Assembly: GCF_019222765.1 (NCBI RefSeq)
Contig: NZ_CP078145.1
Span: forward strand, 8,246,001-8,310,000
Length of the DNA stretch: 64,000 nt
DNA from: Nocardia iowensis
Lineage (GTDB): Bacteria > Actinomycetota > Actinomycetes > Mycobacteriales > Mycobacteriaceae
Reading direction: 5' to 3'
Shown: positions 59,157 through 64,000 of the stretch, in pieces
Layout of the letters: every line of letters starts with the position of its first letter
Numbering within the stretch: position 1 is the first letter of the stretch
Notes under the pieces: model-generated
The model's database searches: none
What the model was told of the DNA's origin: nothing
Seen by the model: the letters and a program-made list of their open reading frames with translations, nothing else
Made by a program: the position numbers and the translations under genes

Positions 59157-61460
59157 TTATTCGGCCGCGAGCGCGCGCCTGCGGACCCGGCGAGCCGCCG
59201 CGACCATGTTGCGCAACGACGGCTCCAGCTGCCAGTAGTGCCGGGTCTTCAGCCCGCCGTCCGGATTCGCCCATAGTCGTTCCGGCGTAACGGCTTCCGC
59301 CGCGGCGGTGAGCAGTTCGTCCAGTTCGTCGATGTCCGGGATACGCGCCGAGCGGCTTTCGTACACACCGGGACCGACACCGTGACTCAGGCCGTGGTCG
59401 GTGCCGCTGTCCGCCTTGAGCGCCTTGAGCACCCATTCGATCGAGCGGGTGGCGACGATCGCGGTGACGTCGGCGTCGAGCTCGTCGATCGCCTCGACCA
59501 CCTCGGCACGGCCGGAATACCCGATGTGCGTGTGGATCTGGGTTTCCGCCTTGACCCCGGAGGTGGCAAGCCGGAACGCGCCGACCGCCCAGCGCAGGTA
59601 TTCCGCCCGGCCATCGGGACGCAGCGGCAGCATCTCCCTGATGGCGGGTTCGTCGACCTGGATGATCGCGATGCCCGCCTTTTCCAGATCCGCCAGCTCG
59701 TCGCGGATGGCCAAGGCCACCTGGTCGGCGGTCTCGTGCAGCGGCTGATCCTGCCGGACGAACGAGCGGGCGATCATCGTGACCGGTCCGGTGACCATGC
59801 CCTTGACCGGCTTGTCGGTCAACGACTGGGCGTAGCTGATCCACTCCACCGACATCGGCTCGGGCCGCGACACGTCGCCGTAGAGGATCGGCGGGCGCAC
59901 ACACCGCGACCCGTACACCTGCACCCAGCCGAAGTGGGTGGTCGCGAAGCCGTCGAGCAGCTCGGCGAAGTACTGGATCATGTCGTTGCGTTCGTGCTCA
60001 CCGTGCACCAGCACGTCGAGGCCGATGTCCTCCTGCAACCGGATCGTCGCCTCGATCTCGGCTTCGATCCGCTTGCGGTAGTCGTCGAAGGACAGTCGTC
60101 CCTGACCGAGCTCGTAGCGCGCCTGCCGAATCTTGTTGGTCTGCGGGAACGAGCCGAGCGTGGTCGTCGGCACCAGCGGCAGATTCAGCTTGGCCTGCTG
60201 CGCCTCGCGACGCTCCTCATACGGTTCACGCGAACGCATTTCCGGCGTGACCGCGTAAACTCGTTGCCGCACCGCGTGTTTCTGCTTGAAGTGCACCTCG
60301 GTCGGCCGCTTGCGCCAGCTGTCCGACGGTCCCTCGGTGAGCGCCTTGGCGAGCGAAACCACCTCGCCCACCTTCTGTTTCGCGAAGGCGAGCCGGTCGG
60401 CCACATTGCCGAGGATGTCGTACTCGATGAGCAGGTCGTACGGCACGTGCAGCAGCGTGGTCCCGGTCGACACGACCAGGTCCGGGCACACCTGCGCGAG
60501 CTGATTCAGGTATTCGAGCGTCACGTGGCGGTCGGCCCGCCACACATTGGTTCCGCTGATCACCCCGGCGTACAGGCGTTTCCGGCGAATGCCTTGGATC
60601 TCCGCGAGCTCCTCCGGCCGGATGCGGTAGCTGGCCAGATCGAGGCCGATGGCCTCCACATTGCTGGCCGCCAGAATCCGCAGCGCCTCACCGAAATCGC
60701 CGTACTGGCCGGTGACGAGCATCCGCGGACGCAGCGGCGCCTTCGAAAGTCGTTGGTAGGCAGCCTCGAACGCGGCCAGCTCGGCGGGCGTGCGCTCGCT
60801 GGTGAACGCGGGTTCGTCCAGCTGCACGCAGGTCGCGCCGCGCTTGGCGAGGATTTCGAACAGTTCCTCGTACACCGGGAGCAGCTTGTCCAGCAGCATC
60901 AGCGTGTCGAACTCGTCCTGGCCGGGAATCTGCCCCGCCTTGGAGAGCAGCAGCAGCGACGCGGGGCCGAGCACCACCGGACGCAGCTCGATGTCCTGTG
61001 CCTTGGCGCGGTCGAATTCGTCGAGCAACGCCTCTGGATGCAGCGAGAACGCGGTGTCGGCGTCCAGTTCCGGCTGGCGGTAGTGGTAATTGCTGCCGAA
61101 GAACCGCACCAGTTCCAGCGGCGGCAGGTCCGGCCGGCCGCGCGCCATCAGGAAATAGAAGTCCAGCGGATCCATCTTGTCCCGGTACGGCTCGAACCGC
61201 TCGGGCACGGCGCCGAACAACAGCGCGTTGTCCAGCACGTGGTCATAGAAGGAGAAGGTATTGCCGGGCACCTGGGTCAACCCGGTGGCGGCGAGTTCGT
61301 TGAACTGCCGTTCCTGAATATCACGGCCCACCGCGAGCAATTCGTCGCGGGGAATCGCTCCGCGCCAATAGGCCTCGAGTGCCCGCTTGAGTTCTCGATG
61401 CGGCCCGATCCGCGGGTAGCCGAGGATGCTCGACCCGTAGCCGTCGGTCACGTTCACCAT
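59157..61460 (-). CDS. MetE-like protein lacking the zinc site (cobalamin-independent methionine synthase homologue)
   Basis: 767 residues, full-length two-barrel MetE architecture: LGYPRIGPHRELKRALEAYW at the N-terminus, TTLGSFPQTNKIRQARYELG, VLVHGEHERNDMIQYF, YGSRCVRPP, IIQVDEPAIREML in the C-terminal barrel. The homocysteine-binding acidic residues are kept. But the zinc ligands of E. coli MetE (His641, Cys643, Glu665, Cys726) read His645, Gly647, Val669 and Gly735 here: IHTHIGYSG, TAIVATRS and NPDGGLKTR instead of IHTHMCYSE, ITIETSRS and NPDCGLKTR. A tryptophan in the TGPVTILxWSF motif also reads Arg (TGPVTMIARSF). So methionine synthesis by the normal zinc-thiolate mechanism is unlikely. 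ATG 61460 with AAGGGAG upstream. Downstream of fadB2 in the same direction. Confidence 0.93.
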   Translation of the reverse strand: MVNVTDGYGSSILGYPRIGPHRELKRALEAYWRGAIPRDELLAVGRDIQERQFNELAATGLTQVPGNTFSFYDHVLDNALLFGAVPERFEPYRDKMDPLDFYFLMARGRPDLPPLELVRFFGSNYHYRQPELDADTAFSLHPEALLDEFDRAKAQDIELRPVVLGPASLLLLSKAGQIPGQDEFDTLMLLDKLLPVYEELFEILAKRGATCVQLDEPAFTSERTPAELAAFEAAYQRLSKAPLRPRMLVTGQYGDFGEALRILAASNVEAIGLDLASYRIRPEELAEIQGIRRKRLYAGVISGTNVWRADRHVTLEYLNQLAQVCPDLVVSTGTTLLHVPYDLLIEYDILGNVADRLAFAKQKVGEVVSLAKALTEGPSDSWRKRPTEVHFKQKHAVRQRVYAVTPEMRSREPYEERREAQQAKLNLPLVPTTTLGSFPQTNKIRQARYELGQGRLSFDDYRKRIEAEIEATIRLQEDIGLDVLVHGEHERNDMIQYFAELLDGFATTHFGWVQVYGSRCVRPPILYGDVSRPEPMSVEWISYAQSLTDKPVKGMVTGPVTMIARSFVRQDQPLHETADQVALAIRDELADLEKAGIAIIQVDEPAIREMLPLRPDGRAEYLRWAVGAFRLATSGVKAETQIHTHIGYSGRAEVVEAIDELDADVTAIVATRSIEWVLKALKADSGTDHGLSHGVGPGVYESRSARIPDIDELDELLTAAAEAVTPERLWANPDGGLKTRHYWQLEPSLRNMVAAARRVRRRALAAE

Positions 61461-61485
61461 GAGCGCGCTGCTCCCTTCGATGGCT

Positions 61486-61519
61486 GTGCGGCGCCCACTA
61501 CGAAGAATGGACGCCGCAC
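61486..61519 (-). promoter_or_regulatory. Inverted repeat in the metE-like leader
   Basis: GTGCGGCG / CGCCGCAC, perfect 8-bp arms with an 18-base spacer, 26-59 bases before ATG 61460. Could be an operator or an RNA stem; too small for a cobalamin or SAM riboswitch. Confidence 0.35.
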
Positions 61520-61582
61520 GCTATTGCGCCTGGGTTGCTGTGGTGCGGTCCGCGACGCGGTCGCGGCCAAATCGGACAGGAT

Positions 61583-62452
61583 TCAGCGGTTGTACTGGTA
61601 GAAACCAGCGCCGGTCTTCTTGCCGAGCAACCCAGCTTCGACCATACGCATGAGCAGCGGCGGAGCCGAGTACAGCGGCTCCTTGAATTCCTGGTACATC
61701 GAGTCGGCGATCGACTTGACGGTGTCCAGGCCGACCAGGTCGGTCAGCGCGAGCGGACCCATCGGGTGCGCGCAGCCGAGCACCATCGCCTTGTCGACGT
61801 CGTCCTTGGTGGCGAAGCCGGATTCGACCATCCGGATGGCCGAGAGCAGGTACGGCACGAGCAGCGCGTTCACCACGAAACCGGAGCGGTCGGCGGAGCG
61901 GACCACCTGCTTGTCGAGCACGTCACCGGCGAACGCCTCGGCGCGCTTGGACACGGCCTCGCTGGTCTTCAGCGTGGTCACCAGTTCGACCAGCGGCAGC
62001 ACCGGCACCGGGTTGAAGAAGTGCATGCCGACGACCCGCTCGGGCTGCGTGGTCGCGACGGCGATCTTCATGATCGGAATGGAGGAGGTGTTGGAGGCCA
62101 GCACGGCCGACGGGTCGGTGACGACCTTGTCCAGCTCGGCGAAGATGGCGGTCTTCACCTTCTCGTCCTCGAGCACCGCCTCGACCACCAGCTGGCGGTC
62201 GGCGAAGTCGTTGAGGTCGGAGGTGAACCGCAGTCGCCATGCGGCCTGCTCGCGCTCCCGCTCGGTGATCTTGCCGCTGCTGACGCCGCGGTCGAGCGAA
62301 CGCAGGATGCGGGCGCGGCCAGCGGCGGCCAATTCTCTGGTCTGTTCGAAGACGAGCACGTCGACGTGCGCCCTCGCACACACCTCCGCGATTCCGGCAC
62401 CCATCTGTCCGGCGCCGATGACACCGACGCGTTGAATCTTCTCGCTGCTCAC
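61583..62452 (-). CDS. fadB2: 3-hydroxybutyryl-CoA dehydrogenase FadB2
   Basis: 289 residues. NAD-binding VGVIGAGQMGAGIAEVCARA, LASNTSSIPIMKIAVATTQP, catalytic His in VVGMHFFNPVPVLPLVELV, dimer domain DRSGFVVNALLVPYLLSAIR and HPMGPLALTDLVGLDTVKSI. Oxidises 3-hydroxyacyl-CoA. Conserved directly downstream of icl, so both serve growth on fatty acids. The strong hairpin between them suggests partial termination. Confidence 0.95.
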   Translation of the reverse strand: MSSEKIQRVGVIGAGQMGAGIAEVCARAHVDVLVFEQTRELAAAGRARILRSLDRGVSSGKITEREREQAAWRLRFTSDLNDFADRQLVVEAVLEDEKVKTAIFAELDKVVTDPSAVLASNTSSIPIMKIAVATTQPERVVGMHFFNPVPVLPLVELVTTLKTSEAVSKRAEAFAGDVLDKQVVRSADRSGFVVNALLVPYLLSAIRMVESGFATKDDVDKAMVLGCAHPMGPLALTDLVGLDTVKSIADSMYQEFKEPLYSAPPLLMRMVEAGLLGKKTGAGFYQYNR

Positions 62453-62647: not shown

Positions 62648-63937
62648 TCAGTGGAACTGGCCCTCTTCGGTGGAACCCTTCAGCGCCGCGGTCGAGGTGT
62701 TCGGGTCGACCGTGGTGGCGATGGTGTCGAAGTAACCCGCACCGACCTCACGCTGGTGCTTGATGGCGGTGAAGCCACGCTCGCTGGCGGCCTTGAACTC
62801 GCGCTCCTGCAGGTCGACGAAGGCGGTCATGCCCTCGCGGGCGTAGCCGTAGGCCAGGTCGAACATGCCGTAGTTGAGCGAGTGGAAGCCGGCCAGGGTG
62901 ATGAACTGGAACTTGAAGCCCATCGCGCCGAGCTCACGCTGGAACTTCGCGATGGTCGCGTCGTCCAGGTGGGCCTTCCAGTTGAAGGACGGCGAGCAGT
63001 TGTAGGCCAGCAGCTGGTCCGGGAACTCGCTGCGGACGGACTCGGCGAACTTGCGGGCGACCTCGAGGTCCGGCACGCCGGTTTCCATCCAGATGAGGTC
63101 GGCGTAGGGGGCGTAGGCCTTGGCCCGCGCGATGCAGGGCTCGATGCCGTTCTTCACACCGAAGAAGCCCTCGGCGGTGCGGGTGCCGTCCAGGAACTCA
63201 CGGTCGCGCTCGTCCACGTCCGAGGTGATCAGGGTGGCGGCCTCGGCATCGGTGCGGGCGATGATCACCGACGGCACGTCGGCGACGTCGGCGGCCAGCC
63301 GGGCGGAGGTCAGGGTGCGGATGTGCTGCTGGGTGGGGATCAGCACCTTGCCACCGAGGTGGCCGCACTTCTTCTCCGAGGCCAGCTGGTCTTCCCAGTG
63401 CACACCGGCGGCGCCGGCGGCGATCATGGCCTTCTGCAGTTCGTAGGCGTTCAGCGCGCCACCGAAACCGGCTTCGGCGTCGGCGACGATCGGGGCCAGC
63501 CAGTTGCTGACCGAGGTGTCGCCCTCGACCTTGGCGATCTCGTCGGCACGCAGCAGCGCGTTGTTGATGCGGCGGACCACGGACGGAACCGAGTTGGCCG
63601 GGTACAGCGACTGGTCCGGGTAGGTGTGGCCGGACAGGTTCGCGTCACCGGCGACCTGCCAACCGGACAGGTAGATGGCCTTCAGGCCGGCGCGGACCTG
63701 CTGGACCGCCTGGTTGCCGGTGAGGGCGCCCAGGGAGTTGATGTAGTCCTCGTTGTTCACGAGGTCCCAGAGGATCTCCGAACCGCGGCGGGCCAGGGTC
63801 GCCTCTTCGACGACGGTGCCCTGGAGCTTCGACACCTGCTCGGCGGTGTAGTTACGGGTGACGCCCTTCCAGCGCGGGTTGGTGTCCCAATCCTGCTGGA
63901 TTTCCGCAGCGGTCTTCGGGGTGCCGGCGTTCGACAT
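62648..63937 (-). CDS. aceA: Isocitrate lyase
   Basis: Splits isocitrate to glyoxylate and succinate in the glyoxylate shunt; essential on fatty acids or acetate. 429 residues. Catalytic KKCGH motif in [20 protein letters not shown], metal-binding ELQKAM..., [35 protein letters not shown], and [22 protein letters not shown] 63937 has GGAG six bases upstream; ATG 63949 is in frame. Known in M. tuberculosis as icl1 (Rv0467). Confidence 0.97.
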
Positions 63938-64000
63938 CTCTGACTCCACTTCCTCGTTTAGGTCGATTGCCCCACGGCCGAGCGGATAAACGACTCGAAC

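Follow-up and report, generated by a model that had tools for sequence, protein, structure and literature searches.

MetE is a textbook zinc enzyme. According to the accessible text of PMC539065, its zinc binds homocysteine and activates it as the thiolate, and in the T. maritima enzyme Trp539 stacks on the pterin and His672 is the general-acid candidate. As far as the accessible part of Price et al. 2021 (PMC7857596) goes, zinc ligands are missing from MesB-like proteins of Chloroflexales and Gly replaces Glu665 in the MesC of MSBL-1; we found no mention in that part of zinc loss in a full-length MetE. Here we analyse metEL, a MetE-like gene in a 64,000-nucleotide stretch of the Nocardia iowensis genome (contig NZ_CP078145.1, positions 8,246,001 to 8,310,000; hereafter the window). 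Its catalytic barrel is homologous to the core methionine synthases MesA–MesD described in the same part of PMC7857596, but those proteins lack the N-terminal barrel, whereas metEL has one and sits inside the tree of full-length MetEs. Judged from sequence, metEL is homologous to MetE but fails at the zinc site and at the cut-off of the MetE family TIGR01371, and its branch appears unreported in the literature that we searched. Most subscription journals lay outside that search, and the accessible parts of four papers that mention metE, methionine or isocitrate lyase (PMC13414329, PMC3751702, PMC2947987 and PMC9426449) do not mention the branch.

59157..61460, reverse strand: metEL, zinc-less full-length MetE homologue of 767 aa with PF08267 and PF01717

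A first-pass annotation of the window had proposed a full-length MetE homologue here, and the open reading frame (ORF) bears it out. The frame holds 767 codons' worth of protein with no internal stops, and a Pfam search detected both MetE barrels, PF08267 and PF01717, and no third domain. We aligned the protein to E. coli K-12 MetE (b3829, NC_000913.3), with which it shares 44% identity. The E. coli ligands His641, Cys643, Glu665 and Cys726 fall on His645, Gly647, Val669 and Gly735, exactly the residues that the annotation had given, so that His is the sole zinc ligand left. The Trp that it had described as changed to Arg is E. coli Trp561, now Arg565. Beyond what it had noticed, Arg703 takes the place of His694, and the homocysteine anchors Ser437, Glu488 and Asp603 are retained. 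Residue counts below refer to 79 metEL representatives, 69 of them from genera with a DNA marker of the His489 type and ten from outer genera; representatives were thinned at 93% identity, which gave 69 metEL and 33 canonical proteins. Residue roles in T. maritima are those of PMC539065, transferred to metEL by motif.

59526..59528, reverse strand: codon of His645 (E. coli zinc ligand His641); His in 79/79
59520..59522, reverse strand: codon of Gly647 (E. coli zinc ligand Cys643); G, A, P, T, S or N in the clade, Cys in 0/79
59454..59456, reverse strand: codon of Val669 (E. coli zinc ligand Glu665); V or I in 79/79, Glu in 0/79
59256..59258, reverse strand: codon of Gly735 (E. coli zinc ligand Cys726); G in 78/79, F in 1, Cys in 0/79
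59766..59768, reverse strand: codon of Arg565 (E. coli Trp561; T. maritima Trp539, pterin stacking); R in 73, G in 2, F in 2, L in 2, Trp in 0/79
59352..59354, reverse strand: codon of Arg703 (E. coli His694; T. maritima His672, general-acid candidate); R in 78/79

The residues that hold the substrates of MetE have largely been kept. The homocysteine anchors, named as Ser433, Glu484 and Asp599 in PMC7857596, are present throughout.

60150..60152, reverse strand: codon of Ser437 (E. coli Ser433, homocysteine carboxylate); retained in 79/79
59997..59999, reverse strand: codon of Glu488 (E. coli Glu484, homocysteine amino group); retained in 79/79
59652..59654, reverse strand: codon of Asp603 (E. 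coli Asp599, homocysteine amino group); retained in 79/79

Arg22, Ser437, Glu488, Asp493, Met494, Arg519, Arg522, Asp603, Glu604 and His645 are invariant in all 79 representatives. Lys25 is retained in 77, Glu609 (T. maritima Glu583, pterin) in 74 and His126 (T. maritima His111) in 68, and the residues that hold the folate tail (T. maritima Arg15, Lys18, Arg493 and Arg496) are kept in 77–79 of 79. Among 179 positions invariant in 34 canonical MetEs, 142 are retained in at least 95% of the 69 metEL proteins; the remaining 37 include the zinc ligands, pterin-site residues and the DIHSP loop. The clade has also acquired invariant residues of its own, among them Cys211, Arg151, Trp382, Trp676 and Glu701. 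Like described MetEs (TIGR01371; E. coli b3829; 1u1h, 1xdj and 4l5z), metEL is full length, with both barrels, the homocysteine anchors and the folate-tail residues; unlike them, it has replaced the Cys, Glu and Cys of the zinc site, the pterin Trp and the acid-candidate His. It also misses the TIGR01371 equivalog cut-off (875 versus 929.95 bits), which the canonical copy of its own genome passes with 1066.7 bits.

An AlphaFold2 model of metEL (mean predicted local distance difference test score 90.1) matched solved full-length MetE with template modelling scores of 0.82–0.92, normalised to query length, among the first 29 chains listed. The model supports the fold only and not the geometry of the site, because 32 of the 79 rows in its input alignment were canonical MetE (the other 47 were metEL). 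On this prediction, the double-barrel fold is retained.

We found metEL in 148/148 Nocardia genomes, in one of them (G015) only as a fragment at a contig end. Ligand positions were read in 153 ORFs, comprising the 148 Nocardia genomes, second copies in three of them and two sister-genus loci. All 153 have His645, Arg565 and His489, none has Cys647, Glu669 or Cys735, and every one has Val or Ile at 669 and Gly at 735. A sequencing error at the three sites, which the annotation had named as a possible refutation, is excluded by this shared loss. One match (G057) was flagged with a stop in the search; the ORF, when read, has 764 codons and no stop inside. Twenty-eight ORFs from ten other genera, detected through the His489 DNA marker, show the same ligand loss, with Arg565 in 26 and Gly565 in 2. 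In ten outer genera without His489, metEL was located by its position behind the neighbouring gene fadB2; each of these ten ORFs lacks the zinc site (H; G or S; V or I; G, once F), with 60–69% identity. Residues were thus read in 20 of the 22 non-Nocardia genera in which metEL was found, all save g3 and g208. The annotation had raised the question of whether Gly/Val/Gly marks a clade: the zinc-less pattern runs throughout, residue 647 varying without ever being Cys, 669 being Val or Ile and 735 being Gly in all representatives save one.

In a survey of the family, with a criterion of at least 60% identity over nearly full length, metEL was present in 28/59 genomes and 22/30 genera, or 23/31 genera with Nocardia. 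No metEL turned up among the genomes sampled from eight genera (g2, g4, g5, g6, g206, g211, g217 and g225), and its presence was patchy in g3 (1/6) and g210 (1/2). The His489 marker alone was found in 105/301 family genomes and 11/31 genera, an under-count because the ten outer genera have I, V, A or P at that position. A DNA marker for NPDGGLKT was found in 4/394 genomes of the class and 3/396 of the phylum, all Nocardia, which shows little beyond metEL not being common in the phylum, because the marker is strict, the samples overlap and no known non-Nocardia carrier was sampled.

metEL is under strong purifying selection. The median ratio of nonsynonymous to synonymous substitution rates (dN/dS; Nei–Gojobori, window gene against 22 relatives) is 0.16, with 0.11 for the neighbouring aceA and 0.10 for fadB2. 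Together with the conserved clade and the intact ORFs, this agrees with the earlier view that the gene is not decaying. Within Nocardia, metEL dN is 0.07–0.12 (16 pairs) versus 0.11–0.20 for canonical MetE (9 pairs; 0.22–0.23 in 2 sister genera), a comparison that does no more than show metEL to be at least as constrained, because the species pairs are unmatched and some Nocardia have two canonical copies. In trees of 69 and 60 proteins, built with every second or every sixth metEL representative, metEL is monophyletic (Shimodaira–Hasegawa-like approximate likelihood ratio test support 100). The canonical MetE of the window genome belongs to a separate clade (support 96–97), and the neighbours of metEL are MetEs of another family of the order (support 88–92). 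The stem measures 0.84 or 0.70 substitutions per site, and the Nocardia tips are mostly 0.02–0.13. Such a long stem with short tips would result if the gene changed rapidly once duplicated or transferred and then came under strong constraint.

Zinc loss maps to two changes on the tree. Among 37 other MetE-like ORFs that we read, 34 have the canonical ligands (HCEC) and Trp. The remaining three (L129, L130 and L131), which were excluded from the canonical set, come from a single genus, which belongs to another family in the order. Like metEL, they are MetE-like with an N-terminal barrel and lack the zinc ligands. Unlike metEL, they represent a separate loss, the second on the tree, which has also removed the His kept by metEL, the HGE.ERND motif and the protein's end. 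In place of HGEPERND they read SADQRRHDDL or a similar string, and they lack the C-terminal end; being common to three genomes, they are not one broken gene.

The gene neighbourhood of metEL differs from that of MetE. Upstream on the same strand lie two genes of fat and acetate catabolism, which we name, putatively, fadB2 and aceA from sequence resemblance.

62648..63949, reverse strand: aceA-like isocitrate lyase gene, 433 aa, first of the three genes
61583..62452, reverse strand: fadB2-like 3-hydroxyacyl-CoA dehydrogenase gene, 289 aa, 122 nt upstream of metEL
61471..61478, reverse strand: GAAGGGAG, Shine–Dalgarno-like, 10 nt 5' of the metEL ATG, putative in function

We examined 202 metEL loci (200 from Nocardia, many genomes being represented twice, plus L117 and L118). 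The order aceA, fadB2, metEL on one strand was seen in 187; six loci reach only as far as fadB2, and the remaining nine have at most 772 bases available upstream of metEL. The same order was found in 20/20 loci of a further set, and in the ten outer genera fadB2 lies 5' of metEL and aceA 5' of fadB2. Between fadB2 and metEL lie 122 nt in the window and 57 to 616 nt across the 202 loci (BLAST ends). In 14 genomes without metEL, aceA stands beside fadB2 in 11 (the exceptions are G362, G799 and G805). Pairwise distances of metEL and fadB2 across 41 loci were correlated (Spearman 0.88), and 0 of 1000 permutations reached as high a value. A recent mobile insert is ruled out, since the neighbours are constant across genera and metEL distances track those of fadB2. 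We infer that aceA, fadB2 and metEL are co-transcribed. A search for promoters or terminators inside the operon found none, against 0.3 and 2.4 expected by shuffling, which says little.

At one locus (L272, genome G072) fadB2 was matched over only 155 residues in one frame despite 6 kb of upstream sequence, possibly through a frameshift or an assembly fault. In N. cyriacigeorgica GUH-2, the accessible part of PMC3751702 places metE and isocitrate lyase coding sequences on the region of genomic plasticity RGP-Cy15. The three-gene order, by contrast, is present throughout the Nocardia analysed here, and the metE named in that paper may or may not be metEL. Antisense to metEL, the window holds a 739-aa open frame (59382–61601, forward strand). 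Long antisense frames are commonplace in GC-rich DNA, and we take this one to be mechanical.

The genome of the window also holds the usual enzymes, both of which the annotation had singled out as informative: a second full-length MetE with HCEC and Trp (G000:C1:6.597 Mb) and a metH that passes the TIGR02082 cut-off. A cobalamin riboswitch (RF00174, 75.2 bits) lies 5' of this canonical metE at L346:3226-3449 on the forward strand, and B12 probably shuts the gene off. At the gathering threshold, no such riboswitch was found in 18 kb around metEL, a further difference from MetE. Two short core-type PF01717 proteins are encoded elsewhere in the genome (L003, G000:C1:6721049-6722014; L004, G000:C1:6160707-6161660).

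Across Nocardia, the MetH activation domain PF02965 was detected in 147/148 genomes. The exception, G048, is a single 9.4-Mb contig with no PF02965 and only 94 bits to TIGR02082. Beside metEL it has one canonical full-length MetE (HCEC/W/H, 91% identical to the canonical copy of the window genome), and two short PF01717 matches besides. In 13/148 Nocardia (two of them less than 90% complete) and 10/59 family genomes, metEL is the only match to a full-length MetE query, and a PF01717 search in which every candidate was scored confirmed it as the sole full-length MetE homologue in 23/23. All 23 have metH, 22 of them with a score above the TIGR02082 cut-off. In the other, G793, metH occupies two adjoining ORFs (G793:C1:1747257-1750774) that jointly cover TIGR02082, consistent with a split gene or a frameshift. 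We looked for a genome in which metEL would be the sole methionine synthase and found none; every metEL-only genome has metH, and dependence on metEL for methionine was seen nowhere.

A lead on physiology comes from R. qingshengii IGTS8. PMC8557817 describes a protein called MetE (peg5907) that contains 2 Cys and 7 Met; with cyanocobalamin in the medium, its abundance on dibenzothiophene exceeded that on sulfate 190- to 273-fold. We compared cysteine counts in 179 metEL and 35 canonical proteins, excluding ORFs with fewer than 600 aligned residues. None of the 35 canonical MetEs has 2 Cys; their counts run from 3 to 7, and E. coli MetE contains 7. Eight of the 179 metEL proteins have 2, including 6/6 from genus g221, which have 6–9 Met; the canonical set held no g221 copy, and membership of IGTS8 in g221 is our guess. 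On composition, peg5907 may be a metEL protein mistaken for MetE. In that case metEL would respond to sulfur limitation; a ligand related to methionine would become more likely, and a role confined to acetate less so.

With three zinc ligands gone, the thiolate route is closed, which makes methylation of homocysteine from methyl-tetrahydrofolate (CH3-THF) very unlikely; metEL is very probably not a methionine synthase. We favour, with reasonable though far from full confidence, the view that metEL is a neofunctionalised, zinc-independent MetE paralogue whose product is no longer methionine and whose ligands would be an amino acid and, probably, a cofactor resembling folate. The retained anchors and tail residues imply that an amino-acid-like ligand and an anionic-tailed cofactor still bind. 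Occupation of the old homocysteine pocket by an amino acid is, on these residues, probable; the use of folate or a folate-like cofactor stands at about even chances; and a catalytic rather than purely regulatory role seems slightly the better guess. The annotation had predicted a different role, and a changed role is likely given that the need for zinc is broken; its options of another acceptor or other one-carbon chemistry, regulation and folate handling would all fit the present evidence. The kept amino-acid anchors and the partly kept folate site would suggest ligands akin to the original pair.

In the mechanism that we propose, the old homocysteine pocket would hold an alpha-amino acid or close analogue, and the cleft between the barrels an anionic-tailed cofactor, be it a folate polyglutamate or another molecule. 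With zinc absent, no thiolate would form to attack methyl-THF. The chemistry would be zinc-independent, perhaps on a non-thiol and possibly anionic side chain, aided by the acquired Arg565 and Arg703; the replacement of the pterin Trp and the acid-candidate His by these two arginines weakly suggests an anionic group nearby. Gene order would tie metEL to the glyoxylate-shunt operon. More tentatively, and at somewhat less than even chances, metEL may represent a new zinc-free enzyme type on the MetE double barrel. It would take an amino acid different from homocysteine and a cofactor that is either a folate or has another poly-anionic tail, and would be the third member of an old operon with isocitrate lyase and 3-hydroxyacyl-CoA dehydrogenase.

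Several observations weigh against a new enzymatic role, and some of them recur in the rival explanations. The NCBIfam equivalog model NF003556 accepts metEL (943.9 versus a cut-off of 541 bits) and assigns it the name methionine synthase. His645 and Cys211 are both invariant (79/79), and His645 might bind a metal through new ligands such as this Cys. A sulfur-starvation link, if the IGTS8 lead is followed, would possibly point to a methionine-related role, and the Cys count of that protein fits metEL better than the canonical copies read. A methionine synthase with zinc held by His645 and other ligands, or a low-sulfur version for sulfur limitation, could draw on all of these; it is nonetheless improbable, because three ligands out of four have changed together with the pterin Trp and the acid-candidate His, metH is present in all 23 metEL-only genomes, and the one Nocardia without metH keeps canonical metE. 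A short core-type PF01717 protein in 20/23 metEL-only genomes also tells against our view, and the adjacency to aceA may be passive inheritance. The folate role seems weakened in a subgroup, since Glu609 is Thr in 4/79 proteins, which have Phe or Leu at 565, and at the pterin-site position of T. maritima Lys104, residue 119 is Arg in 62/79, Ala in 1 and Lys in only 16. Decay of a duplicate or sequencing error would account for lost catalytic residues, but both are ruled out for practical purposes by a pattern that extends over 148/148 Nocardia and proteins of 20 further genera, by the dN/dS of 0.16 and by intact ORFs.

The strongest competitor is a non-catalytic sensor or scaffold that would bind methionine, homocysteine or folate and regulate, for example, AceA, FadB2 or MetH, or buffer folate. 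Such a role would leave traces much like those of catalysis and would fit nearly as well: ligand anchors are retained, catalytic groups are gone and the gene neighbourhood is strict. We consider it unlikely, although clearly ahead of the other rivals, because the replacements are non-random (Cys211, Trp676 and Glu701 invariant, Arg703 in 78/79, Arg565 in 73/79), as in a rebuilt rather than an emptied cleft, and Pfam gives no third domain. DmdA is a model for THF-dependent demethylation of a sulfonium substrate. By analogy, metEL could demethylate a sulfonium amino acid such as S-methylmethionine: as a sulfonium donates methyl groups readily, N5 of THF would attack directly and both zinc and the general-acid His would be dispensable. 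Retention of the methionine/homocysteine anchors and folate-tail residues alongside zinc loss suits this idea, as would a sulfur-starvation role if the IGTS8 lead is right. Two acquired arginines near the site would, however, be predicted to repel a sulfonium, aceA and fadB2 have no known link to sulfonium use, and Glu609 is not universal; we give this explanation little chance.

With its zinc chemistry gone and its substrate anchors under strong selection, this full-length branch indicates that the MetE scaffold can be reused. For the 23 metEL-only genomes, automatic models may credit B12-independent methionine synthesis that is probably absent, and published 'MetE' proteome data in the Nocardia-related group may need re-reading. 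The constant position of metEL behind isocitrate lyase suggests that Nocardia and its relatives have an undescribed step in carbon or sulfur metabolism. If metEL is indeed a new enzyme type, this step would link one-carbon or amino-acid chemistry to central carbon metabolism.

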